Under the pieces are notes generated by a model. It saw only the letters and a program-made list of their open reading frames with translations. It made no database searches and had not been told where the DNA came from. A stretch of DNA of 55,295 nucleotides from NCBI GenBank assembly GCA_031263985.1, contig JAISER010000080.1:1-55295 (forward strand). Reading direction: 5' to 3'. Position numbers and translations under genes: made by a program. The number at the start of each line of letters is the position of its first letter. Position 1 is the first letter of the stretch. This DNA comes from Clostridiales bacterium. Lineage in GTDB: Bacteria > Bacillota > Clostridia > Lachnospirales > JAISER01. Shown one piece after another: positions 5,328-53,738 of this stretch.

Positions 5328-5587
5328 TTATCCAGTGGAGTTCAAATTATTAATACTAATACACAGTTGGTCAGCAACCTTATCAAACGTATGAAAGAAA
5401 CGATTTTCGAAATCTTTCTCTTTCAATTCCTTCCAAATCCGTTCAATAGGATTCACTTCGGGAGTGGCGGGCGGAATAAAGAAAAGTTCGATATTATCTG
5501 GCATTACGAGGCTCCCAGACTTGCGCCAACTTGCGTTATCCGCACAAAGCGATATGTAATCATCGGGAAAGCTTTTTGATAGCTTAC
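5328..5587 (-). pseudogene. IS630-family transposase, C-terminal fragment
   Basis: About 85 codons read on the minus strand with no internal stop. They hold the second and third catalytic residues of an IS630 DDE domain: Asp in LCADNASWRKSG and Glu in TPEVNPIERIWKELKE, ending at a TAA at 5330-5328. The N-terminal two-thirds is missing; the fragment starts exactly where the inverted-repeat element at 5588 begins. It is a dead remnant, different in sequence from the IS630 relic on the other strand at 5757. Confidence 0.75.
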
Positions 5588-5755
5588 TAAGAGTCTGTTT
5601 AAGATCTCGCTTTTAGCGGATTTTTGTGATGATTTTTCGCCAACCGCGGAAGCGCGAAAGCCGCGTATTCGAAGAATATACGCAAAGAGCGCTGACAAAG
5701 TGTGGCGGAAAATAAGCTGAAAAGACGCGAAATGGACATCTTGAACAGGCTCTTA
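5588..5755. mobile_element. MITE-like inverted-repeat element, family 1
   Basis: 168 bp between TA dinucleotides with inverted ends (AGAGTCTGTTTAAGATCTC / ACATCTTGAACAGGCTCT). The interior is shared in the same orientation with the copy at 48065 and in reverse with 34239, 37184 and 53561. It lies between two oppositely oriented IS630 relics and appears to truncate the left one. Confidence 0.8.
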
Positions 5756-5756
5756 G

Positions 5757-6257
5757 AACAAATCCGTGATGTCCGACAGGAAAGCATTGTTTATATTGAC
5801 GAAACCGGCATCGATACTTTTTTGCACAGAGAATACGCTTATTCCAAGCGCGGAGAAAAAGTTATCGGGCGAGTTTCCGGTAGGAAGTATTGGCGCTTGG
5901 GTATTGTCGCCGCTCCAATTTAACGGAACAATGGATGACCGGTTATTTGAGTTTTGGTTTGAAAACTGTCTCTTGCGCGAATGTCCTTCTAATTCCGTCA
6001 TTGTAATGGACAATGCCGCTTTCCATCGAAAGAAACGGCTTATTTCGCTTGCCGAAAGCAGTAAACATAAAATAGTGTTCCTACCGCCGTATTCCCCGGA
6101 ATATAACCCTATTGAGAAATTTTGGGCATGGCTTAAACGCAAGCTCAGGAAAGAATTATCTTATTTTGATAGTTTTGATGATTGTTTGCGTTACTGTTTT
6201 AATAGCATCAAGCTGTATCTTCAAGAGCCTCAAAAATATCTACCAGCGTTTTCATAA
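5757..6257 (+). pseudogene. IS630-family transposase, frameshifted and 5'-truncated
   Basis: Residues around the first catalytic Asp (VYIDETGID) are read in one frame up to a TAA near 5921. The rest (FNGTMDDRLFEFWFE, VIVMDNAAFHRKK with the second Asp, PPYSPEYNPIEKFW with the Glu) is read in another frame to a stop at 6257. Compared with IS630 transposases a few residues are missing between GIVAA and the FNGTM segment, so a small deletion caused the frameshift. The N-terminal DNA-binding region is absent because the element at 5588-5755 abuts it. Not expected to be active. Confidence 0.8.
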
Positions 6258-33563: not shown

Positions 33564-34238
33564 TGAGAGTCCTCCGTCTAAACATCTCTCGCCGTCGAAC
33601 AATTCAACGGCGATAGCCTAAAGTATATTTGTTTTACCTGTTGTTGTCAATGCCTTTAGCATATTTTTACAACGTACTTAAAACCGTTTTCAAAAGTCCT
33701 TCTTCGCCTTCGGATGCAACCGCGATTCTGAACGCGTCCGCCGCTTTCATCCTTTTCTTCACCAATTTACCTTTGATATTTCCCCCGCCGTTTCCATGTT
33801 TTTTACCGTCCGCCGTTTTATATTCCGCCAGCGCTCAACTCCAACGCCTGTTTTGAGCGCCGCGGCTGAGAACGCGCGCGAATCGGCGAACCCTTTTTCA
33901 GACCGTTTTCACGCCCTAAAACGATTTTTGGCTCATCGGACCTTTCCCATAGTTTTTCTTATTTTACATATTTACTCTAAACGTATTAATTCCTTTAAAA
34001 ACCATTGTATTATATCAATAGTTTATGTATAATATCGTTAAACGTACATAGCCGCAATTAAAAAATCAATAATAACAAACTTTCATTTCACTCCTTACAT
34101 GAAAAGTTAACGGCGGCTAGGCGTCTTTTAAAAGCGGTAGTCAAAGAAATTGCATTTTACATCACTCTTTCGAGCGCGGCGTCATTTAATTAAAGTCTGG
34201 TCTTGCTGACAGTCAAGGCCCAAGCTCATAAAAAACAT

Positions 34239-34397
34239 TAGAGCCTGTTCAAGATCTCCATTTTGCGTTTTTCAGCTTATTTTCCGCCACGCTTTGTCAG
34301 CGCTCTTCGCGTATATTCTTCAAACGCGCGGCGTTCGCGCTTGGCGAAAGATCATCACAAAAAAATCCGCTAAAAATGAGAACTTGAACAGGCTCTA
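34239..34397. mobile_element. MITE-like inverted-repeat element, family 1 (complete)
   Basis: 159 bp flanked by TA with ends AGAGCCTGTTCAAGATCTCC and GAACTTGAACAGGCTC. It lies immediately upstream of the first lipoprotein gene, 15 nt before its start codon, so it forms the leader and may separate the array from the upstream spacer. Confidence 0.85.
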
Positions 34398-34411
34398 AGA
34401 AACGGGGGGTG

Positions 34412-34585
34412 TTGAAAATTAAGAACATAGCTAAACTCTTGATATGCGCGACTATAGCGATATCAATGACCGCCGCTGTTTCCGGATGCAAAGCCGCCGG
34501 ACTGAATCATTACGTTACCGTTAATCTAGACGAATCTAACGAGGAAGAGCCTGTAACGGTGGAAGAGTCTTATGTGTTCAGATAA
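34412..34585 (+). CDS. Micro-lipoprotein 1 of the array
   Basis: 57 aa. Basic N-terminus (MKIKNIAK), hydrophobic core and lipobox AVSG-C with Cys26, giving a 32-residue acidic tail (NLDESNEEEPVTVEES). Start is TTG (or GTG one codon earlier) right behind a run of six G. Predicted diacyl-glyceryl lipoprotein of the outer membrane leaflet side. First and most 5' member of the array; function unknown. Confidence 0.7.
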   Translation: MKIKNIAKLLICATIAISMTAAVSGCKAAGLNHYVTVNLDESNEEEPVTVEESYVFR

Positions 34586-34737
34586 CCCGCCGTCCCTCGC
34601 CGCATTTAAAAGAACTCCGCTATCCGCGGCGATTTCCTTGCGCCCTTGACCGCCTACCGGTCCGAGGTGCGCGCGTCTTAATCCGGTAACGGAAACGTTC
34701 TTAAAAGATCCGAAAAACTTTAAGGAGGTTCTTAGAA

Positions 34738-34872
34738 ATGAACGGCTTATTTAAGTATTTATCCCTGATCGCTGTAATAATAGCCAGCGCGTTCACGTTC
34801 TCCGCTTGCAGGAAGTTTATCGTGCAAGATGACGGCAGTTTGATCGAACAAGCTATAAACTATTTTGAATAA
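34738..34872 (+). CDS. Micro-lipoprotein 2 of the array
   Basis: 44 aa with RBS AAGGAGG. Signal MNGLFKYLSLIAVI..., lipobox TFSA-C at Cys24, mature tail CRKFIVQDDGSLIEQAINYF plus Glu (21 residues). No recognised domain. About 150 nt of spacer on each side. Confidence 0.75.
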   Translation: MNGLFKYLSLIAVIIASAFTFSACRKFIVQDDGSLIEQAINYFE

Positions 34873-34971
34873 CGACGTTATATTACATGTTTTAAAGAAA
34901 CGCGACGGCGAAACGATAGACGGACGCGTTCGCGCGCCGCATTATAAAAAATCGTGGAGGAAAAAATCATT

Positions 34972-35094
34972 ATGAAAAAATCATTTAAATATTTATTAAT
35001 GGCCGGCGTATTAATGATCGCGTCGCTCGCGGTTTCAGGATGCACGGAATTTTACGTGCCAGCCGCTCTCGCCGCCTCTTTTATGAGTCAATAG
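34972..35094 (+). CDS. Micro-lipoprotein 3 of the array
   Basis: 40 aa, start MKKSFKYLL shared almost exactly with member 6, lipobox AVSG-C at Cys24, mature tail of 17 residues (CTEFYVPAALAASFMSQ), neutral and hydrophobic. RBS GGAGG, TAG stop. Confidence 0.75.
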   Translation: MKKSFKYLLMAGVLMIASLAVSGCTEFYVPAALAASFMSQ

Positions 35095-35150
35095 TAAAGG
35101 CGCTCAAAAAAACGCGCTTTCATAATTTCAATTAAGGAGATGTCCTACTT

Positions 35151-35291
35151 ATGATGAACAAATTTTTATGCGGTTTCGCGCTTGTCGCGGCCATAGCCCT
35201 CGCCACGGCGGGCTGCTCCAAAGTATTCTACCCCAAAGACGCGGAGATCGAGCCAGCTCCCGTGGAAGCGGAGGAAACCGTAGTCGCATAA
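35151..35291 (+). CDS. Micro-lipoprotein 4 of the array
   Basis: 46 aa beginning with tandem ATGs; lipobox ATAG-C at Cys22 (or Cys21 from the second ATG). The 25-residue tail starts CSKVFYPKD and ends acidic and Glu-rich (PVEAEETVVA). RBS AAGGAG. The 306 nt after it hold no gene that I recognise. Confidence 0.75.
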   Translation: MMNKFLCGFALVAAIALATAGCSKVFYPKDAEIEPAPVEAEETVVA

Positions 35292-35597
35292 TGCGGTATC
35301 AATTCTTATTATGTCAATTTTTAATCATACGATACGCGTCACACGCTAGAAAGCGATCACGCCATAATTAAATCCCAGAACCGGTGATTTTTGTCAAGGG
35401 ATCGCTTTCTAAAAAAACAAGAAAACCTTGGCGGCGGCGAAAAGCGTTTTCAAATTCGCATATAACTCCTTGCCGCTGAATAATGTCAATTTCGCTCCAT
35501 TCCTTAATAAAGCGTCCTTTTAGCGCGCCGTCGATCGTCGCCGCGCGTCTTCAACCGCGTTTATAACACATAAAAAATCTAGGGAGGTTTTAATAAA

Positions 35598-35777
35598 GTG
35601 AAAAACGCTGTTAAAATTTTCTTCGGATCTTCTATGCTGCTCATATTAGCCATATCTTCCACAGGCTGCGTACAACACATTTTACCGAAATCGCCCGACG
35701 TTACTGTAATTACGGACAAAAAAGAGACCGCGGAAGAAATTGGCGCGGAAGAAGATATCTACGGCGCCGATTTTTAG
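35598..35777 (+). CDS. Micro-lipoprotein 5 of the array
   Basis: 59 aa, GTG start behind GGGAGG. MKNAVKIFFG..., lipobox SSTG-C at Cys24. The 36-residue tail begins CVQHILPKSPD and ends acidic (EEIGAEEDIYGADF). TAG stop. Confidence 0.75.
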   Translation: MKNAVKIFFGSSMLLILAISSTGCVQHILPKSPDVTVITDKKETAEEIGAEEDIYGADF

Positions 35778-35961
35778 AAGGAATAATATCTTAACGGCGC
35801 GAATTGAACGCGTCGCGGTTAACGCGTGACAAGAAGCGCGTTAAGCTAGCCCCGTCGGTCGCAAGCTCGCGACATGCATAACCGCGCGAAAATCATGCGG
35901 CGTCGTTCGTCACTATTCTAACTATTGGCCGACTAGTAATTGAGAGGAGTCTTAATTTACC

Positions 35962-36117
35962 ATGAAAAAATCATTCAAATATTTATTATGCTCAGCTTTG
36001 ATAATAATTTCAGCGTCCGCGTTCAGCGCCGGCTGCATAAATAAGATCGTCCCTTCCTCAGTTGAAGAAGCCGCGACCAATACCGGCCTACCAGCTGGCT
36101 TGGCCGATTATCTTTAA
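35962..36117 (+). CDS. Micro-lipoprotein 6 of the array
   Basis: 51 aa. MKKSFKYLL as in member 3; lipobox FSAG-C at Cys25; 27-residue tail CINKIVPSSVEEAATNTGLP... RBS GAGGAG. Likely a diverged duplicate of the same ancestral unit. Confidence 0.75.
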   Translation: MKKSFKYLLCSALIIISASAFSAGCINKIVPSSVEEAATNTGLPAGLADYL

Positions 36118-36159
36118 TAACAAACCGTCATCATATTAAAAAATTGAGGAGATTTACAT

Positions 36160-36423
36160 ATGAAAAAATCATTGCGGCATTTATTCGGCGCAGCTATTAT
36201 GATAACCGTTACAGCGTTTACTATCGGCTGCACCAAGATATATACGCCCGCTAATAAAACTTCATCTTCCCAGAACACAAGCGCTCCGGCCGCGAATACG
36301 ACGAATAACCAAAAGTCCGCGGACCAAAAGCCCACAGACCAAACGCCGTCGACATCTTCTGATTTACCGATAGATATTCCCGGCGATTACGCGGATTTGA
36401 TTCCGCCCGGATTTTTCCAATAG
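36160..36423 (+). CDS. Micro-lipoprotein 7, longest member
   Basis: 87 aa. MKKSLRHLFG, lipobox FTIG-C at Cys24, then a 64-residue low-complexity tail rich in Ser, Thr, Asn, Gln, Pro and Asp (for example CTKIYTPANKTSSSQNTSAP), ending DLIPPGFFQ. The tail would form an extended tether. RBS GAGGAG; only 42 nt after member 6. Confidence 0.85.
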   Translation: MKKSLRHLFGAAIMITVTAFTIGCTKIYTPANKTSSSQNTSAPAANTTNNQKSADQKPTDQTPSTSSDLPIDIPGDYADLIPPGFFQ

Positions 36424-36488
36424 GCTCTGAAATGGCGATTTAAGTCATTTTAGTAAAACTTCGTGATAAAAAAAAGGAGGATTTACCT

Positions 36489-36587
36489 ATGAAAAACAAA
36501 ATTAAAGCTTTATTGTTCTCCTCTCTGATCATAACGCTTTCAGTGGTGGCGTGCGCTTGCGCGGACCCTTCCGCATTTCTCGCTTAG
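36489..36587 (+). CDS. Micro-lipoprotein 8 of the array
   Basis: 32 aa. MKNKIKALLF..., two possible lipobox cysteines (VVA-C at 22, ACA-C at 24), leaving a tail of only 9-11 residues (CADPSAFLA from Cys24). RBS AAGGAGG, TAG stop. Too short for any folded domain. Confidence 0.75.
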   Translation: MKNKIKALLFSSLIITLSVVACACADPSAFLA

Positions 36588-36757
36588 CGTTAGCCTCACG
36601 TGAGAACGCTCGCTTATGGAACGCGTAAAACAAATGATAAAACTGGCTTCGAACTACATATAATGACATTAATCTTATTTAGAACGCGTTTCAATCGCGA
36701 CTGTAAGGCCACCGCTTTAAAAATATCAAATTATTACATGAAGGGAGTTTTTAAACC

Positions 36758-36853
36758 ATGAAAAATAAAATCAGAACCTTTTTCTGCTTAGCCTTGATCG
36801 CGACGGTCTCCGCCGTTATAAGCGCTTGCGGCCCTTCCCTTATGCCTTATTAA
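36758..36853 (+). CDS. Micro-lipoprotein 9 (tandem set, copy 1)
   Basis: 31 aa. MKNKIRTFFCLALIATVS..., lipobox VISA-C at Cys24, mature octapeptide CGPSLMPY. RBS AAGGGAG. It is the first of three tandem copies spaced about 151-152 bp; it differs from the next two at several positions. Confidence 0.8.
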   Translation: MKNKIRTFFCLALIATVSAVISACGPSLMPY

Positions 36854-36908
36854 TGTCCTTTTTTCAAACGTGCGAATGAATAAAATCATTAAAGGAGATG
36901 TTGGCCCT

Positions 36909-37004
36909 ATGAAAAACAAAATTAGATTCCTTTTCGGCTTCGCCTTAATCGCGGCGGTCTCCGCTGTTATAAGCGCTTGCGGCCCTTCAGTTATTCCTTA
37001 TTAA
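36909..37004 (+). CDS. Micro-lipoprotein 10 (tandem set, copy 2)
   Basis: 31 aa, identical in protein sequence to copy 3 at 37061: MKNKIRFLFGFALIAAVS..., lipobox ISA-C, mature CGPSVIPY. RBS AAAGGAGA. It lies 55 nt after copy 1, with near-identical spacer DNA. Confidence 0.82.
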   Translation: MKNKIRFLFGFALIAAVSAVISACGPSVIPY

Positions 37005-37060
37005 TGTCCTTTTTTTCAAACGTGCGAATGAATAAAATCATTAAAGGAGATGTTAGCCCT

Positions 37061-37156
37061 ATGAAAAACAAAATCAGATTCCTTTTCGGCTTCGCCTTAA
37101 TCGCGGCGGTCTCCGCCGTTATAAGCGCTTGCGGTCCTTCCGTTATTCCCTATTAA
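37061..37156 (+). CDS. Micro-lipoprotein 11 (tandem set, copy 3)
   Basis: 31 aa, same peptide as copy 2; the period between the two starts is 152 bp and includes leader and RBS. Only a few silent or spacer differences, so the duplication is recent. Followed by a family-1 inverted-repeat element after 27 nt. Confidence 0.82.
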   Translation: MKNKIRFLFGFALIAAVSAVISACGPSVIPY

Positions 37157-37183
37157 TATCTCTTTTTCAAGGCTTTCGAATAA

Positions 37184-37351
37184 TAAGAGCCTGTTTAATA
37201 TCTCCATTTCGCGTCTTTTCGGCTTATTTTCCGCCACGCTTTATCCGCGCTCTTTGCGTATATTCTTCAAATACGCGGCGTTCGCGCTTAAGCGTTTAGC
37301 GAAAAATCATCGCAAAAATCCGCTAAAAGCGAGATCTCAAACAGGCTCTGA
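37184..37351. mobile_element. MITE-like inverted-repeat element, family 1, inside the lipoprotein array
   Basis: 168 bp with ends AGAGCCTGTTTAATATCTCC and GAGATCTCAAACAGGCTCTG; the right TA is mutated to TG. It interrupts the array between members 11 and 12. Confidence 0.82.
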
Positions 37352-37413
37352 GAGTTAACTAACTAAAGAAGTAAGCGAAGACATCATACCCCAAAGGAGG
37401 GAAATCTAATCTC

Positions 37414-37512
37414 ATGAAGACGAAAATAAAAGGATTCATATTCTCATCTTTGCTTATAACGTTTAGCGTTATAGCCTCCGGTTGCTTGCAGTTGCCTGAT
37501 ATCGCGGTATAA
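37414..37512 (+). CDS. Micro-lipoprotein 12 of the array
   Basis: 32 aa. MKTKIKGFIFSSLLITFS..., lipobox IASG-C at Cys24, mature nonapeptide CLQLPDIAV. RBS AAAGGAGG. Signal peptide close to that of member 8. Confidence 0.78.
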   Translation: MKTKIKGFIFSSLLITFSVIASGCLQLPDIAV

Positions 37513-37648
37513 CTGACGCGACCTCGGTTCCGCGCAATGACGAAAATAGAGAATTATAATTAACTCACCTTGGTTTTCGTCATTTAGAGCCTGAACCGCG
37601 CCGTTTGTTACGGCGATCTAAATACATTCAACATACGAACGTTATGTC

Positions 37649-37725
37649 GCGGGGAACAGTCGCTTGGCGATTATTCCACTATAAAAGCTTAGCTTTTAAC
37701 AACGCCTCGTTTAGCCGTTCCCCGC
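37649..37725. repeat. 77-bp imperfect inverted repeat
   Basis: Outer arms GCGGGGAAC and GTTCCCCGC, inner arms GGCG/CGCC and a central AAAAGCTTAGCTTTT near-palindrome. This could form a cruciform or a structured RNA. There is no T tail, so it is not a typical terminator. It may be an element end or recombination site. Confidence 0.5.
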
Positions 37726-38032
37726 TTATTCAATCTCACCGCGAACTCATACTCCCGCGCTCAATAGGCCAGCCAATCTCAGACCGCGAAACGAAAACCT
37801 CTCATCTCGCGATAACGCTTCAGTCGTTATCCGCACATTCTTACCAAATAAAACCATGCTATAAAGACTCTCTTCTTATATTCCAGGCAAAATCAGTTCC
37901 GATCCGCCTCAGACTTTGGCGGTCATCGGAGCTGTTTTTTTACGCTAACCCCGAACCGCCCACTCTTACCTCGGCCCGCTGAACATTTTACAGATATTTG
38001 TGGAACAATCCAAATTTTTTTTAATATTTGTA

Positions 38033-38061
38033 TTGCTTAATAAAGCTATTTAAGTTAAAAT
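38033..38061 (+). promoter_or_regulatory. Putative sigma-A promoter upstream of lipoprotein 13
   Basis: TTGCTT (38033-38038), 17-nt spacer, TAAAAT (38056-38061). The distance to the gene at 38301 is about 240 nt; a closer promoter at 38239-38266 may be the main one. Confidence 0.4.
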
Positions 38062-38238
38062 ATAGTAGTCAGATTGTATTCTAAGAAAAAATCCTGATGG
38101 CAAATGGTGTTTCGCGGAAATTTCTCAACCGCGCATTCGTGTACGTTAGATATGGGATTACTTATTCAGCGAATCGAGAACGTCCGCTTTTTATCGTAAA
38201 ACCGCGTATTAATACGCGTGTTTTAGCGGTTTTCGCCG

Positions 38239-38266
38239 TTAACTTAGCGAATGCCGCGAATATAAT
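38239..38266 (+). promoter_or_regulatory. Repeated-unit promoter of lipoprotein 13
   Basis: TTAACT (38239-38244), 16 nt, TATAAT (38261-38266), embedded in a leader GCGAATGCCGCGAATATAAT that recurs before members 14 and 17 and in diverged form before 15. Confidence 0.65.
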
Positions 38267-38300
38267 AAATTCAAATTGGGGAGAAAAGGAGGTGTTACTG

Positions 38301-38426
38301 ATGAAGTACAATCTTAAATCTTTATTAGGAGTAATCTTTGTGGTAGTCGCGGCTGTTATCATGTGCAGTTGCACTCAAATCAACGTACCTACGGACCCAG
38401 TCGTTATTGATGAAGTTCAAGTTTAA
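38301..38426 (+). CDS. Micro-lipoprotein 13 (second block)
   Basis: 41 aa. MKYNLKSLLGVIFVV..., lipobox MCS-C with cysteines at 22 and 24, tail CTQINVPTDPVVIDEVQV (18 residues). RBS AAGGAGG; an upstream in-frame extension has no RBS and is rejected. Founder-like member of the second block, closest to member 17. Confidence 0.8.
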   Translation: MKYNLKSLLGVIFVVVAAVIMCSCTQINVPTDPVVIDEVQV

Positions 38427-38428
38427 TT

Positions 38429-38514
38429 TTTATTAGGGCGCTTTTATGATAGTCACGGCGATTATCGCGCGTAACGGCGCTAAAGTCAGCGCGCCTGTAG
38501 AATTACTTGTTTAA
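38429..38514 (+). pseudogene. Decayed micro-lipoprotein copy
   Basis: TTATTAGGGCG...ATGATAGTCACGGCG... aligns with the 3' two-thirds of members 13 and 17. It reads MIVTAIIARNGAKVSAPVEL then LV and stop, where member 17 has VIAAALIVCSCTQITVPSEL. Both cysteines and the 5' end are lost. It shows that copies are also dying in this array. Confidence 0.6.
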
Positions 38515-38612
38515 TATGACTTTTGGTACATAGAACTTAATTTTACTGAAAGCGGAGCGCTTTGAAATTCGCCATTTTTCGTAAGACAGCGAAAATGCGC
38601 GCGTTTTCGCCG

Positions 38613-38640
38613 TTGACTTAGTGAATGCCGCGAATATAAT
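38613..38640 (+). promoter_or_regulatory. Repeated-unit promoter of lipoprotein 14
   Basis: TTGACT (38613-38618), 16 nt, TATAAT (38635-38640), 33 nt before the start codon. Same leader sequence as at 38239 and 39543. Confidence 0.75.
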
Positions 38641-38673
38641 GGATTTTGAACTGAAAAACAAGGAGGCGTTACA

Positions 38674-38772
38674 ATGAAGCGTAAACTCAAATCCTTATTA
38701 GGCATAATTCTTGTATTAGCTACGACGGCTATCGTGACTGGATGCTTTCCTCATGGGGTGATAACTTTTTAA
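38674..38772 (+). CDS. Micro-lipoprotein 14 (second block)
   Basis: 32 aa. MKRKLKSLLGIILVLATT..., lipobox VTG-C at Cys24, mature nonapeptide CFPHGVITF. RBS AAGGAGG. Tail shares the HGV.TF pattern with members 15 and 16. Confidence 0.8.
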   Translation: MKRKLKSLLGIILVLATTAIVTGCFPHGVITF

Positions 38773-38950
38773 ACGCCGTCACCATCCTTTCAGTCATCGC
38801 TTACAAATATAGTGTCTTTAAGCGGCGTTCTTTTGGCGCATAGAACTTATTTTATTGAAAGCGGGTCGCCTTGACGCTCACTCTTTTTCGTAAAACAGCG
38901 CATGCCACGAATATAATGAATTTTAAGCTGGAGAAAAGGAGGTGTTACGA

Positions 38951-39046
38951 ATGAAGCGCAAACTCAAATCTTTATTAGGCGTAATTCTTGTGATAACTAC
39001 GACGGTTATCGTGTGCGGATGCACTCACGGGGTGTTCACTTTTTAA
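38951..39046 (+). CDS. Micro-lipoprotein 15 (second block)
   Basis: 31 aa. MKRKLKSLLGVILVITTT..., cysteines 22 and 24 (VCG-C), mature octapeptide CTHGVFTF. RBS AAGGAGG. The leader keeps TATAAT (38912-38917) but its -35 is weak. Confidence 0.8.
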   Translation: MKRKLKSLLGVILVITTTVIVCGCTHGVFTF

Positions 39047-39269
39047 ACGTTGTCACCATCCTTTTAGTCGCCGCTTACAAACATAGAGTCTTTAAGTCGC
39101 GTTTTTTTGGCGTTAGGACCAGCTCACCTAATAGAATCGCTTGTTTGAGACGACTTTTGGCATATAGATTTACTGAAAGCGATCTGCCTCGACGCTCACT
39201 CTTTTTCGTAAAACGGCGCATGTTACGAATACACTGAATTTTAAGCTTGGGGAAAAGAAGGTGTTACGA

Positions 39270-39374
39270 ATGAAGCGCAAACTCAAATCTTTATTAGGCA
39301 TAATTTTTGTGATAACTACGACGGTTATCGCGTGTGGGTGCGTTCCTCGTCCTCACGGGGCGTTTGTCTTTTAA
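39270..39374 (+). CDS. Micro-lipoprotein 16 (second block)
   Basis: 34 aa. MKRKLKSLLGIIFVITTT..., ACG-C at Cys24, tail CVPRPHGAFVF (11 residues). The RBS is AAGAAGG and the leader -10 has changed to TACACT, so its own expression may be reduced. Highly similar to member 15 over the signal peptide. Confidence 0.78.
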   Translation: MKRKLKSLLGIIFVITTTVIACGCVPRPHGAFVF

Positions 39375-39542
39375 ACGTTGTCATCATCTTTCAGTCGCCG
39401 CTTCGCTCACAAACATAAGGTCTTTAAGCGGCGTTTTTTTGGATATATAGAACTTATTTTTTCCGGGAACATAGCGCCTTGGCCTCCGCTCTTTTTCGTG
39501 ACACCAGCATCTTAACGGCGCGCGTTTTAGCGGCTTTTGTCG

Positions 39543-39570
39543 TTGATTTGGCGAATGCCGCGAATATAAT
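39543..39570 (+). promoter_or_regulatory. Repeated-unit promoter of lipoprotein 17
   Basis: TTGATT (39543-39548), 16 nt, TATAAT (39565-39570), in the same GCGAATGCCGCGAATATAAT leader as members 13 and 14. Confidence 0.72.
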
Positions 39571-39606
39571 GAATATTAAAGTTTAAAAAAAAGGAGGCGC
39601 TATTTA

Positions 39607-39717
39607 ATGAAGAACAAAATTAAATCTTTATTGGGTGTAATTTTTGTGATAGCCGCGGCGCTTATCGTGTGCAGTTGCACTCAAATTACCGTACCTTCAG
39701 AACTGCTTGTCGTTTAA
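39607..39717 (+). CDS. Micro-lipoprotein 17 (second block)
   Basis: 36 aa. MKNKIKSLLGVIFVIAAA..., VCS-C with cysteines 22 and 24, tail CTQITVPSELLVV (13 residues), clearly related to member 13. RBS AAGGAGG. Confidence 0.8.
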   Translation: MKNKIKSLLGVIFVIAAALIVCSCTQITVPSELLVV

Positions 39718-39791
39718 GCGGCATTATTTTAGATACTATAAAAAACTTATTTTCTTAAACTATTATATTATAAGGGAGTTGTCTTGATCTA

Positions 39792-39938
39792 ATGAAAAAA
39801 TCACTTAAATTCTTATTGACCGCAGCTCTTACGGTTCTTCTTGCGGTCGCAATATCAGCCTGTTCACCTATTGATGAGGTTGATGAAGAGCCGGAGCAGG
39901 ACGTTCCAGTCGTCGTCGAAGAGGACGTAATTTCGTAA
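39792..39938 (+). CDS. Micro-lipoprotein 18, last of the array
   Basis: 48 aa. MKKSLKFLLTAALTVLLAV..., lipobox ISA-C at Cys24, acidic 25-residue tail (CSPIDEVDEEPEQDVPVVVE then EDVIS). RBS AAGGGAG with a longer spacer. Its signal peptide is nearer to the first block (members 3, 6 and 7). Ends 24 nt before the terminator. Confidence 0.8.
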   Translation: MKKSLKFLLTAALTVLLAVAISACSPIDEVDEEPEQDVPVVVEEDVIS

Positions 39939-39962
39939 TTTAATCTCGCTGACCAAAGAAAG

Positions 39963-39998
39963 AGCGTCCGTTTTCATAAACGGACGCTTCTTTTTATC
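39963..39998. terminator. Bidirectional terminator between the array and the recombinase gene
   Basis: Perfect 11-bp stem AGCGTCCGTTT / AAACGGACGCT with a 4-nt loop TCAT and the T-rich tail TCTTTTTATCTT on the plus strand; A-rich on the other side, giving Ts on the minus strand. It closes both converging transcription units. Confidence 0.9.
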
Positions 39999-40010
39999 TT
40001 TGCCCCGCGT

Positions 40011-41072
40011 TCAATCTTCACGCAGTTTCACGGCCTTCGCGGCCGCTCTGCGCCTTTCGTCGGACATGGCCGCGTATCGTTTTCGCGTAGTATTTACGTC
40101 AGCGTGGCCTAAAACGTCAGCTACTATGTAAATATCCGACGTTTCGTTATAAAGCGCCGTCCCGAACGTGCTCCTTAGCTTATGGGGCGTTATATTTTTA
40201 AGCGTCGTCACCATCTTTGAGTATTTTTTTACGAGTATCCTTATAGCCTGATTCCCCATGCGCTTCCGCTGTATAGACAAAAACAGCGCGTTTTCATTCC
40301 CGGCGACAGGCGTTATCTTCTCACGTTCCTTCATATACCCCAAAACCGCGTCCGCGACCTCTTCACCGAAATAAATAACCGCCTCATTTCCGCCCTTTCG
40401 AGTGACCTTAACCGCGTTTACATTAAAATCCATATGCTCCACGTTTATGCCCACGCATTCGGAAACTCGCATTCCCGTTCCCAGCAACAGCGTTATAATC
40501 GCCAAGTCGCGCGCTTTTGTAATCGCGTGAAAAGCCTTTCCCCGACCGGTCAAATTCTCGCCGCTTTCCACCTCGTCGAGCAACCGCGCTACCTCGTCAA
40601 CCTCGAGCTTTATTATAGCCTTTTCCTTAACCGCCGGAAAATCGACCAACTCAGCCGGATTCGAACTTATGCGGCGCTTTTTGCAAAAATAAGAAAACAT
40701 CGTGCGCACGGCCGCAAGCTTTCGCGACTTACCGCAGGCGTCGTTGCTCCTGCTCCGTATTCCGCCGCCTTTCAAAACAGCCGTGTAATAACTGATGTAT
40801 TCCAAAAACCGCTCTATATCCTCAGCCGTCACTTGCTCCAGACTCTCTATGGAAAACGTCTTTAACGAAAGCCCCTTAAACAATTCCGCGTTCTCGATCA
40901 GAAACATGAAAAACAACTTAATGTCGTCCGCGTATACGGACCGCGTTCTCGGCGACTTCGTATCCGCTATCCCTATAAAAAAACTTTCCATAAACGGCGG
41001 CAATTCCTTTAATTTCTCGCGCACTCGCGTTACATTTTCTCTTTTTACATCGTCATGGTAATTGTCCGACAT
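40011..41072 (-). CDS. Tyrosine recombinase (XerC/XerD/XerS-like)
   Basis: 353 aa. The N-terminal SAM-like core-binding domain (residues about 20-165) is followed by the catalytic domain with Arg in GTGMRVSE (about 200), a Lys in the beta-hairpin (VTRKGGNE), HKLRSTFG (His/Arg, about 295), LGHADVNTT (His) and the nucleophile Tyr in RKRYAAMS (about 332). Length resembles the single-protein XerS recombinases or chromosomal phage-type integrases. It faces the lipoprotein array across a terminator. It could be the chromosome-dimer resolvase or a mobile-element integrase; no dif or att site was recognised. Confidence 0.88.
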   Translation of the reverse strand: MSDNYHDDVKRENVTRVREKLKELPPFMESFFIGIADTKSPRTRSVYADDIKLFFMFLIENAELFKGLSLKTFSIESLEQVTAEDIERFLEYISYYTAVLKGGGIRSRSNDACGKSRKLAAVRTMFSYFCKKRRISSNPAELVDFPAVKEKAIIKLEVDEVARLLDEVESGENLTGRGKAFHAITKARDLAIITLLLGTGMRVSECVGINVEHMDFNVNAVKVTRKGGNEAVIYFGEEVADAVLGYMKEREKITPVAGNENALFLSIQRKRMGNQAIRILVKKYSKMVTTLKNITPHKLRSTFGTALYNETSDIYIVADVLGHADVNTTRKRYAAMSDERRRAAAKAVKLRED

Positions 41073-51399: not shown

Positions 51400-51828
51400 C
51401 TATTGAATCGCCGCGGCCGCGCCGTCGGTCTCCGCTCCTTCTAATAAAGCGGGGTCAACAATCCCTTCCGCCGTAGGTTCTACAGGTTCGCCTACTACGT
51501 CAACCGTAAGTCCAGCGGTATCATCGACCGCGCCGTCAATTTCAGCGCCGCCGGTTAAATCCGTTACATCAATTCCTTCGCCGTCAACTTCTTCGCCGAC
51601 GATTTCATCACCGGCGGTTCCATCGGTCGGCGGAATCTCCGGAAGATCAAATCCTCCTTCAGGGGCCGTATCTTCGTCAACCGGCGGCGTAATGTCATCC
51701 GTAGAGCCGCCGTCTTGTTCCACAGGCGTATCGTCGCTCGACTGTCCTTCATCATTCGTCGTTCCACACCCAGCGGTAAGTACAACCGTTAAAAACGTGC
51801 AGATAACCGTTGCGAAAAGTCTTTTCTT
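51400..51828 (-). CDS. Acidic low-complexity lipoprotein
   Basis: 142 aa. Signal MKKRLFATVICTFLTVVL, lipobox LTAG-C at Cys22. The 121-residue mature part is composed mainly of Asp, Glu, Gly, Pro, Thr, Val and Ala without Lys or Arg, so it is extremely acidic and probably unstructured (for example DEDTAPEGGFDLPEIPPTD). No recognised domain; perhaps a cation-binding or spacer lipoprotein. Start at 51828 has GGGAGG upstream; a longer reading frame begins upstream without signal features. Similar signal peptide to the array at 34412-39938, but much longer tail. Confidence 0.82.
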   Translation of the reverse strand, partial: KKRLFATVICTFLTVVLTAGCGTTNDEGQSSDDTPVEQDGGSTDDITPPVDEDTAPEGGFDLPEIPPTDGTAGDEIVGEEVDGEGIDVTDLTGGAEIDGAVDDTAGLTVDVVGEPVEPTAEGIVDPALLEGAETDGAAAAIQ

Positions 51829-52612
51829 CATTTTGGCATTTTCCTCCCTAATAATGGTTTGGGCAGTCTTCGCCGGACTCTTTGGCAATCCGGAAAGCGC
51901 CCATTATTTTCAAACCTCAATTTAATTTGAAGGTTTGGAAAACGTAGCCTCAGCTTTTAACAAGCCGATCAGTTCGAGGCGTCCATAATATTTAATCACT
52001 ATACTTTAATATTATATATGTATATTAAAAAACAAACCAAACAATTTCTACTAGAATAATTCCATTTCGCCTTTCGTCATTAACCCATTAACTGAGCGAG
52101 CCAACGTGACGCCTCTGAATTTTTAACTTAATCAGTTTACTGTCTTTAATAAAATATGTCAACTGTATTTTAAAAGTTTTAGTCAAAGAATTGTCAAAAA
52201 AATAATTTCGCTACAGTTTCACCTAATTTTTCAGCTAGATATATTTAAAATATACAATCAATTTATTTCTATCACTCCTGACTTCGTTAAAATGCAAAAT
52301 ACACCTTATTAAAACAGTTAATGGACTGAACGCTCAAGACAGCTCGGCTACTCATAAACGTTTGCAAGCGTCTTACAATTCGTTGACAAATCGTTTACAT
52401 AACATACTTACGTTAAAATAAATCGTAGGTCTGAACATCGCGAAATTATTTTTTTTAGCCTTATAATCATCAGCTTATCTTGACGATTATACCTAAATAT
52501 TATAAGATTACAAAAGTTTCCCTGTAATTCACTATGGACGACGCTTAGTCCGCCCATAGTGAACGCGCTAACCGTATATTTTTGGAAACAATCTTAATGG
52601 GAGATGGTTTTG
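51829..52612. other. A/T-rich divergent intergenic region
   Basis: 784 nt with no supported gene, between divergently transcribed genes. On the minus strand TATAAT (52016-52011) may be the lipoprotein promoter with a weak -35 18 nt upstream; its leader has two hairpins (AAACCTTCAA...TTGAGGTTT near 51914-51938, CCGGA...TCCGG near 51874-51894). On the plus strand a TTGACA at 52383 has no clear -10. The leader hairpins do not match a riboswitch that I know. Confidence 0.45.
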
Positions 52613-53560: not shown

Positions 53561-53720
53561 TAAGGTCCTGTTCAAGATCTCCATTTCGCGTCTTTTCGGC
53601 TTATTTTCCGCCACGCTTTGTCAGCGCTCTTCGCGTATATTCTTTGAATGCGCGGCATCTGCGTTTGGCAAAAAATCATTATAAAAAATCCGCTGAAAAC
53701 GAGATCGTGAACAAGCTCTA
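53561..53720. mobile_element. MITE-like inverted-repeat element, family 1
   Basis: 160 bp with TA flanks, left end AGGTCCTGTTCAAGATCTCC, right end GAGATCGTGAACAAGCTC. Interior identical in type to 34239 and 37184. It lies between the dipeptidase and aminotransferase genes, its right end 18 nt before the aminotransferase start. Confidence 0.82.
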
Positions 53721-53738
53721 AGAATGAGAGGTTTTACT

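Follow-up and report, generated by a model that had tools for sequence, protein, structure and literature searches.

The enterococcal pheromone consists of the final stretch of a lipoprotein's signal peptide, which is freed after signal peptidase II and Eep have acted (PMC7117660). In the vpma locus, switching is driven by the adjacent Xer1 (PMC2268961), and the entericidins are small lipoproteins encoded by a linked toxin-antidote gene pair (PMC5105897). A tandem lipoprotein family is already known as a kind; the distinctive feature of the array described here, carried by a bacterium that is uncultured and probably clostridial, is the tiny size of its products.

The window, by which we mean the whole stretch of 55,295 bases that was analysed, contains 18 short frames with an RBS and a lipobox, all on the + strand between positions 34412 and 39938. 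They were located with a scan for an RBS-like motif, at least one Lys or Arg near the start, a core free of charged and polar residues, a lipobox and a length of 28–110 aa, which returned exactly the 18 frames listed in a preliminary description of this DNA. The members are:

34412..34585, + strand: member 1, 57 aa, TTG or GTG start at 34409, mature part CKAAGLNHYVTVNLDESNEEEPVTVEESYVFR, weak RBS, begins 14 nt past a MITE-like repeat
34738..34872, + strand: member 2, 44 aa
34972..35094, + strand: member 3, 40 aa
35154..35291, + strand: member 4, 45 aa
35598..35777, + strand: member 5, 59 aa, GTG start
35962..36117, + strand: member 6, 51 aa
36160..36423, + strand: member 7, 87 aa, Ser/Thr/Pro/Gln-rich tail
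36489..36587, + strand: member 8, 32 aa
36758..36853, + strand: member 9, 31 aa, mature part CGPSLMPY
36909..37004, + strand: member 10, 31 aa, mature part CGPSVIPY, 152-nt tandem duplicate with member 11
37061..37156, + strand: member 11, 31 aa, peptide identical to that of member 10
37414..37512, + strand: member 12, 32 aa
38301..38426, + strand: member 13, 41 aa
38674..38772, + strand: member 14, 32 aa
38951..39046, + strand: member 15, 31 aa
39270..39374, + strand: member 16, 34 aa, RBS AGAAGG
39607..39717, + strand: member 17, 36 aa
39792..39938, + strand: member 18, 48 aa, acidic tail

The same scan gave no match on the − strand of the 55,295-base window, none in 200 dinucleotide shuffles of positions 33900-40000, and no small match in 213 kb sampled from the same genome. 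A further 118 kb of the genome yielded one gene pair (the C94 cluster, below) and one unconvincing frame of 28 aa. The 18-gene array is far beyond chance expectation. All 18 members carry a basic N-terminus, an uncharged hydrophobic core and a lipobox (G/A/S at −1, Cys at +1), the lipobox being called by pattern. As had been described, the Cys is most often residue 24 (15 of the 18 members; members 4, 6 and 1 have it at residues 21, 25 and 26, respectively), every gene is preceded by an RBS of its own, weaker in members 1 and 16, and mature parts of 8–13 residues occur, a size shared by many of the tails within an overall range of 8–64 residues. We consider it very probable that the members are genuine micro-lipoproteins. 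Tandem duplication is evident for members 10 and 11, which could be recent copies with little time for divergence. A 125-aa frame with a TTG start at 37605-37982 has neither a Pfam match nor a second copy.

Signal peptidase II (LspA) is encoded in the same genome (PF01252, E 4.8e-28, G000:C119). From the sequence pattern and the presence of this enzyme we infer export and lipidation. Sec would export each product via its basic, hydrophobic signal peptide, Lgt would lipidate the invariant Cys, and LspA would cut before that Cys, leaving peptides of 8–64 residues anchored to the cytoplasmic membrane on its outer side. Most of these peptides are neutral or acidic, and many have an aromatic residue at the end.

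The members fall into three subfamilies, arranged next to one another:

Members 1-7 and 18: subfamily A, MKKSFKYLL-type, with longer, often acidic tails
Members 8-12: subfamily B, MKNKIR-type, with tails of 8-9 residues
Members 13-17: subfamily C, MKRKLKSLLG-type

In the aligned set, M1 and the Cys are the sole invariant positions; K2 is conserved in at least 90% of the trimmed alignment. Because no other position is invariant, the signal peptides are best called related; “near-invariant”, the earlier wording, was too strong for three subfamilies.

Close pairs show purifying selection. Between members 10 and 11 there are five synonymous changes, three of them within the eight mature codons, and no nonsynonymous ones. 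Over the first 22 codons, summed for eight pairs, pS is 0.33 and pN 0.17. For signal peptide and mature part alike, pN is lower than pS in all six close pairs compared, with few codons per pair; for the mature part of members 13 and 17 the values are pN 0.19 and pS 0.53. When the units of members 13-17 are aligned, the tail length differences of members 14-16 are multiples of 3, and the gaps just past the stops include ones of 1 and 5 nt. The mainly synonymous substitution between close paralogues suggests that the frames are translated and probably under purifying selection, and the low pN in the mature parts, together with the in-frame length differences, suggests that the tails are also probably translated and are conserved within subfamilies.

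These patterns bear on the idea that the genes are decaying signal-sequence remnants of larger lipoproteins, tandemly duplicated and non-functional. Very short tails, a MITE-rich, rearranged region and the lack of relatives elsewhere are what such decay might leave behind, but start, RBS-like motif, charge, core and lipobox are kept in all 18 members, synonymous changes prevail, indels in the tails are exclusively in frame, and three other clusters have the same architecture. We therefore judge decay to be very unlikely.

What stands of the interpretation offered in the preliminary description is that very small lipoprotein genes with individual RBSs form a tandem family, for which the libraries searched hold no described counterpart. 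Its second part, diversification of the tails, is not supported: none of the six close pairs has a pN as high as pS in the mature part, and the tails have features in common, namely a Pro at +7 in 10 of the 18 mature parts and an aromatic C-terminus. The excess of nonsynonymous change in exposed parts that would mark a diversifying surface antigen was not seen in these six pairs of few codons each. Among 24 distinct tails, obtained by taking one per near-identical set and adding the other genomic clusters, 23 have a net charge that is zero or negative. An F, Y or W is found among the last three residues of 15 of the 24, versus 9 among 40 long genes from the window. Spotted post hoc, this enrichment has only moderate significance (Fisher P 0.002; 0.005 after collapsing paralogues).

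The main rival to a role for the tails themselves is that the products serve as pheromone precursors, for which enterococci provide the precedent, e.g. cCF10 (PMC7117660). After LspA cleavage, an intramembrane protease would free the last 7-8 hydrophobic residues of the signal peptide, and the tails would be by-products. The signal peptide is here the part that is longest and aligns best, some tails are as short as 8 residues, and three signal-peptide subfamilies would yield a few distinct pheromones. By-products, however, would not need a shared Pro at +7, and the tails too are under purifying selection, as the mature parts of pairs 10/11 and 13/17 illustrate. Nor is any receptor, exporter or inhibitor gene linked to the array. 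The pheromone reading keeps a real if minor chance of being correct.

Profile searches identified three further clusters of the same architecture elsewhere in the genome, with four, two and two genes, a count that rests on these searches and on sampled stretches:

L083:4883-5856: C70 cluster, four genes
L057:2895-3498: C78 cluster, two genes, with a hairpin and T-run after each
L111:4512-4825: C94 cluster, two genes

Another match, at C36:8454, resembled a small lipoprotein, but no frame of this kind with a usable start was seen at that position.

Outside this genome, the array profile found no array in about 1,100 sampled genomes (39 relatives and, from the order, class and phylum, 392, 391 and 398 genomes, respectively), in sets that partly overlap and of which the phylum set was searched with a different alignment; its matches in these genomes were only scattered lipoproteins, mostly full-length. 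The array genome is the sole member of its family among the genomes searched. When a profile of the C70 and C78 genes was run against 295 genomes of the order, the matches listed outside this genome were almost all large lipoproteins. With the queries tried, plasmids, phages and viral contigs contained no relatives. Homologous arrays in relatives, to which the preliminary description had looked, are thus absent from the collections searched; related clusters occur in the same genome, however. The observation is real and unusual, and it is apparently lineage-restricted.

Pfam and NCBIfam gave no convincing family match. The weak NCBIfam matches were mainly to lipoprotein families, the best being SS_mature_LptM (E 0.0034, 5 of 17 members), PADLOC gave no match and PHROGs only weak ones. 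We found no description of an array of this form in the literature searched. Entericidin-type small membrane-active toxins, or toxin-antidote sets, would share with the array its tandem copies and similar size. Many of the mature parts, however, have only 8-13 residues and are neutral or acidic, the members show no obvious pairing, and there is no family match in Pfam or NCBIfam, where no entericidin profile matched at E<1 for 17 members. A toxin function of this type is accordingly among the less likely explanations, at roughly a one-in-ten level of belief.

Signals for transcription were sought within and around the array:

38239..38266, + strand: promoter-like site of member 13, TTAACT-N16-TATAAT, 10/12 matches
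38613..38640, + strand: promoter-like site of member 14, TTGACT-N16-TATAAT, 11/12 matches
39543..39570, + strand: promoter-like site of member 17, TTGATT-N16-TATAAT, 10/12 matches
39962..39989, + strand: terminator-like hairpin of 12 pairs at the end of the array, scored on the − strand as well

Promoter-like sites were assigned to members 13, 14 and 17 only, where they are located in upstream sequence common to the three; the region total of 19 is not much higher than the shuffled mean of 13.7 (sd 3.7). Each gene would be translated from its own RBS, and at least three may be transcribed from their own promoter-like site. The strong hairpin at 39962-39989 could be used by either strand. A conserved terminator ending each of members 14-16 was considered and dropped, as the folds are not clearly better than those of shuffles, and Rfam gave no match over 31-42 kb.

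The array is flanked by two gene groups, both on the opposite strand. To the left lie fabH and the other genes of a fatty-acid synthesis cluster. To the right are genes for a tyrosine recombinase and an MTA/SAH-nucleosidase-like phosphorylase, together with a phosphoglucosamine-mutase-like gene. The relevant features are:

34238..34398, strand not assigned: MITE-like repeat with terminal inverted repeats AGAGCCTGTTCAA, just before member 1
37183..37353, strand not assigned: second MITE-like repeat, between members 11 and 12
40011-41072, opposite strand to the array: Xer-type recombinase gene with a Phage_integrase domain

The same MITE-like repeat was scored at about 40 places genome-wide (320 first-look candidates), and one copy adjoins a DDE_3 transposase frame at 5766-6257. 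No partner, receptor, regulator, exporter or inhibitor gene linked to the array is present in the window.

Lipoprotein genes with related signal peptides that adjoin an Xer-type recombinase gene (40011-41072) call to mind a phase-variable surface lipoprotein array switched by that recombinase, as in vpma/xer1 of Mycoplasma agalactiae. Here, however, all 18 genes have one orientation, several have their own promoter-like site, and upstream stretches of at least 12 nt shared by three or more members are confined to members 13, 14 and 17. Dinucleotide repeats of at least five units are absent, and only two 8-base A-runs adjoin an RBS. The recombinase does not look dedicated to the array either: relatives (E<1e-40, 48-59% identical) occur in 36 of 39 genomes of the order, and since no array was found there, the adjacent enzyme looks like a housekeeping Xer. 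Used as a query against a collection of genome contigs, it detected four loci, at most 48% identical and without an array. Recombinase-driven switching is hence highly improbable, more so than any other explanation weighed here.

We propose that the array encodes a family of micro-lipoproteins, putatively membrane-anchored surface peptides, that is specific to its lineage, has expanded in tandem and is expressed from independent genes, and give this reading as a whole an even chance. The role of the anchored peptides is not constrained, because no partner, receptor or regulator is linked to the clusters. Our best guess, held tentatively, is a set of envelope surface peptides present in many copies for dose or variety, whose aromatic C-termini would perhaps fold back onto the membrane. 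More doubtful is that about two dozen independent genes make up an undescribed, genetically encoded lipopeptide repertoire, in which each gene would yield a ready-made lipid-anchored peptide of some 8–64 residues with a defined aromatic end, serving specifically in signalling or in the defence of the envelope. In that case, the 8-residue products would be among the smallest genome-encoded mature lipoproteins. If the genes are expressed, whole clusters would be given over to lipid-anchored peptides barely longer than the lipid attachment site, a direct test of lipopeptides as surface tags, signals or membrane modifiers would be opened, and RBS, lipobox and clustering would provide a simple rule for finding more. 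Such tiny lipopeptide genes are a class often overlooked by gene finders.

Comparison with known systems places the array near several of them. The likeness to LptM and other small lipoprotein attachment-site families lies in SS_mature_LptM being the best weak NCBIfam match, which is attributable to the signal peptide; the match is not significant, and there is no sign of a shared mature part. With entericidin A/B (ecnAB) the array shares tandem genes for very small lipoproteins, but it has 18 members versus 2, many of its mature parts are shorter and are neutral or acidic, and a family match is lacking. Enterococcal CcfA/cCF10 resembles it in the lipobox-Cys signal peptide, the predicted LspA processing and the hydrophobic residues before the Cys. 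The mature protein of CcfA, however, is larger and YidC-like (PMC7117660), whereas the tails here are under selection, and unlike in the enterococcal pheromone systems no receptor or plasmid system was found. The Vpma/xer1, Vsp and Vsa loci of Mycoplasma are likewise multigene lipoprotein arrays with an adjacent Xer-family recombinase gene. In contrast to these loci, the present genes share one orientation and no recombination site, several have their own promoter-like site, the mature parts comprise 8–64 residues, and the recombinase is also conserved where no array was found.

Micro-lipoprotein genes are also found on three other contigs of the same genome, where they are located as follows (coordinates within the named stretches):

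L083 (contig C70), 4883-5856, - strand: four further genes in tandem, 54-67 aa
L057 (contig C78), 2895-3498, + strand: two genes, 59 and 76 aa
L111 (contig C94), 4512-4825, + strand: two genes, 50 and ~39 aa

Both products of the C78 pair carry EFF as their C-terminal end, and a terminator-like hairpin lies 3' of each of the two genes. NADH-dehydrogenase/hydrogenase-type subunit genes are located near the C70 cluster.

Further features lie in the window itself:

37512-38300: 788-nt gap in the array
37605-37982: 125-aa frame with a TTG start, inside this gap
34238-34398, 37183-37353, 5584-5753, 53567-53724: MITE-like repeat, ~160 bp, AGAGCCTGTTCAA ends
51400-51831, - strand: solitary lipoprotein, 143 aa
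10297-14319, - strand: NeuB-family and sugar-nucleotide genes

A Pfam search with the TTG frame returned no match, and no second copy was found in the genome. Copies of the repeat are very numerous across this genome, and one adjoins a DDE_3 (IS630-like) transposase frame (5766-6257). The solitary lipoprotein, which has a long, acidic, Pro/Glu/Asp-rich tail, likewise had no Pfam match. The NeuB-family and sugar-nucleotide genes suggest a nonulosonic-acid surface glycan pathway.
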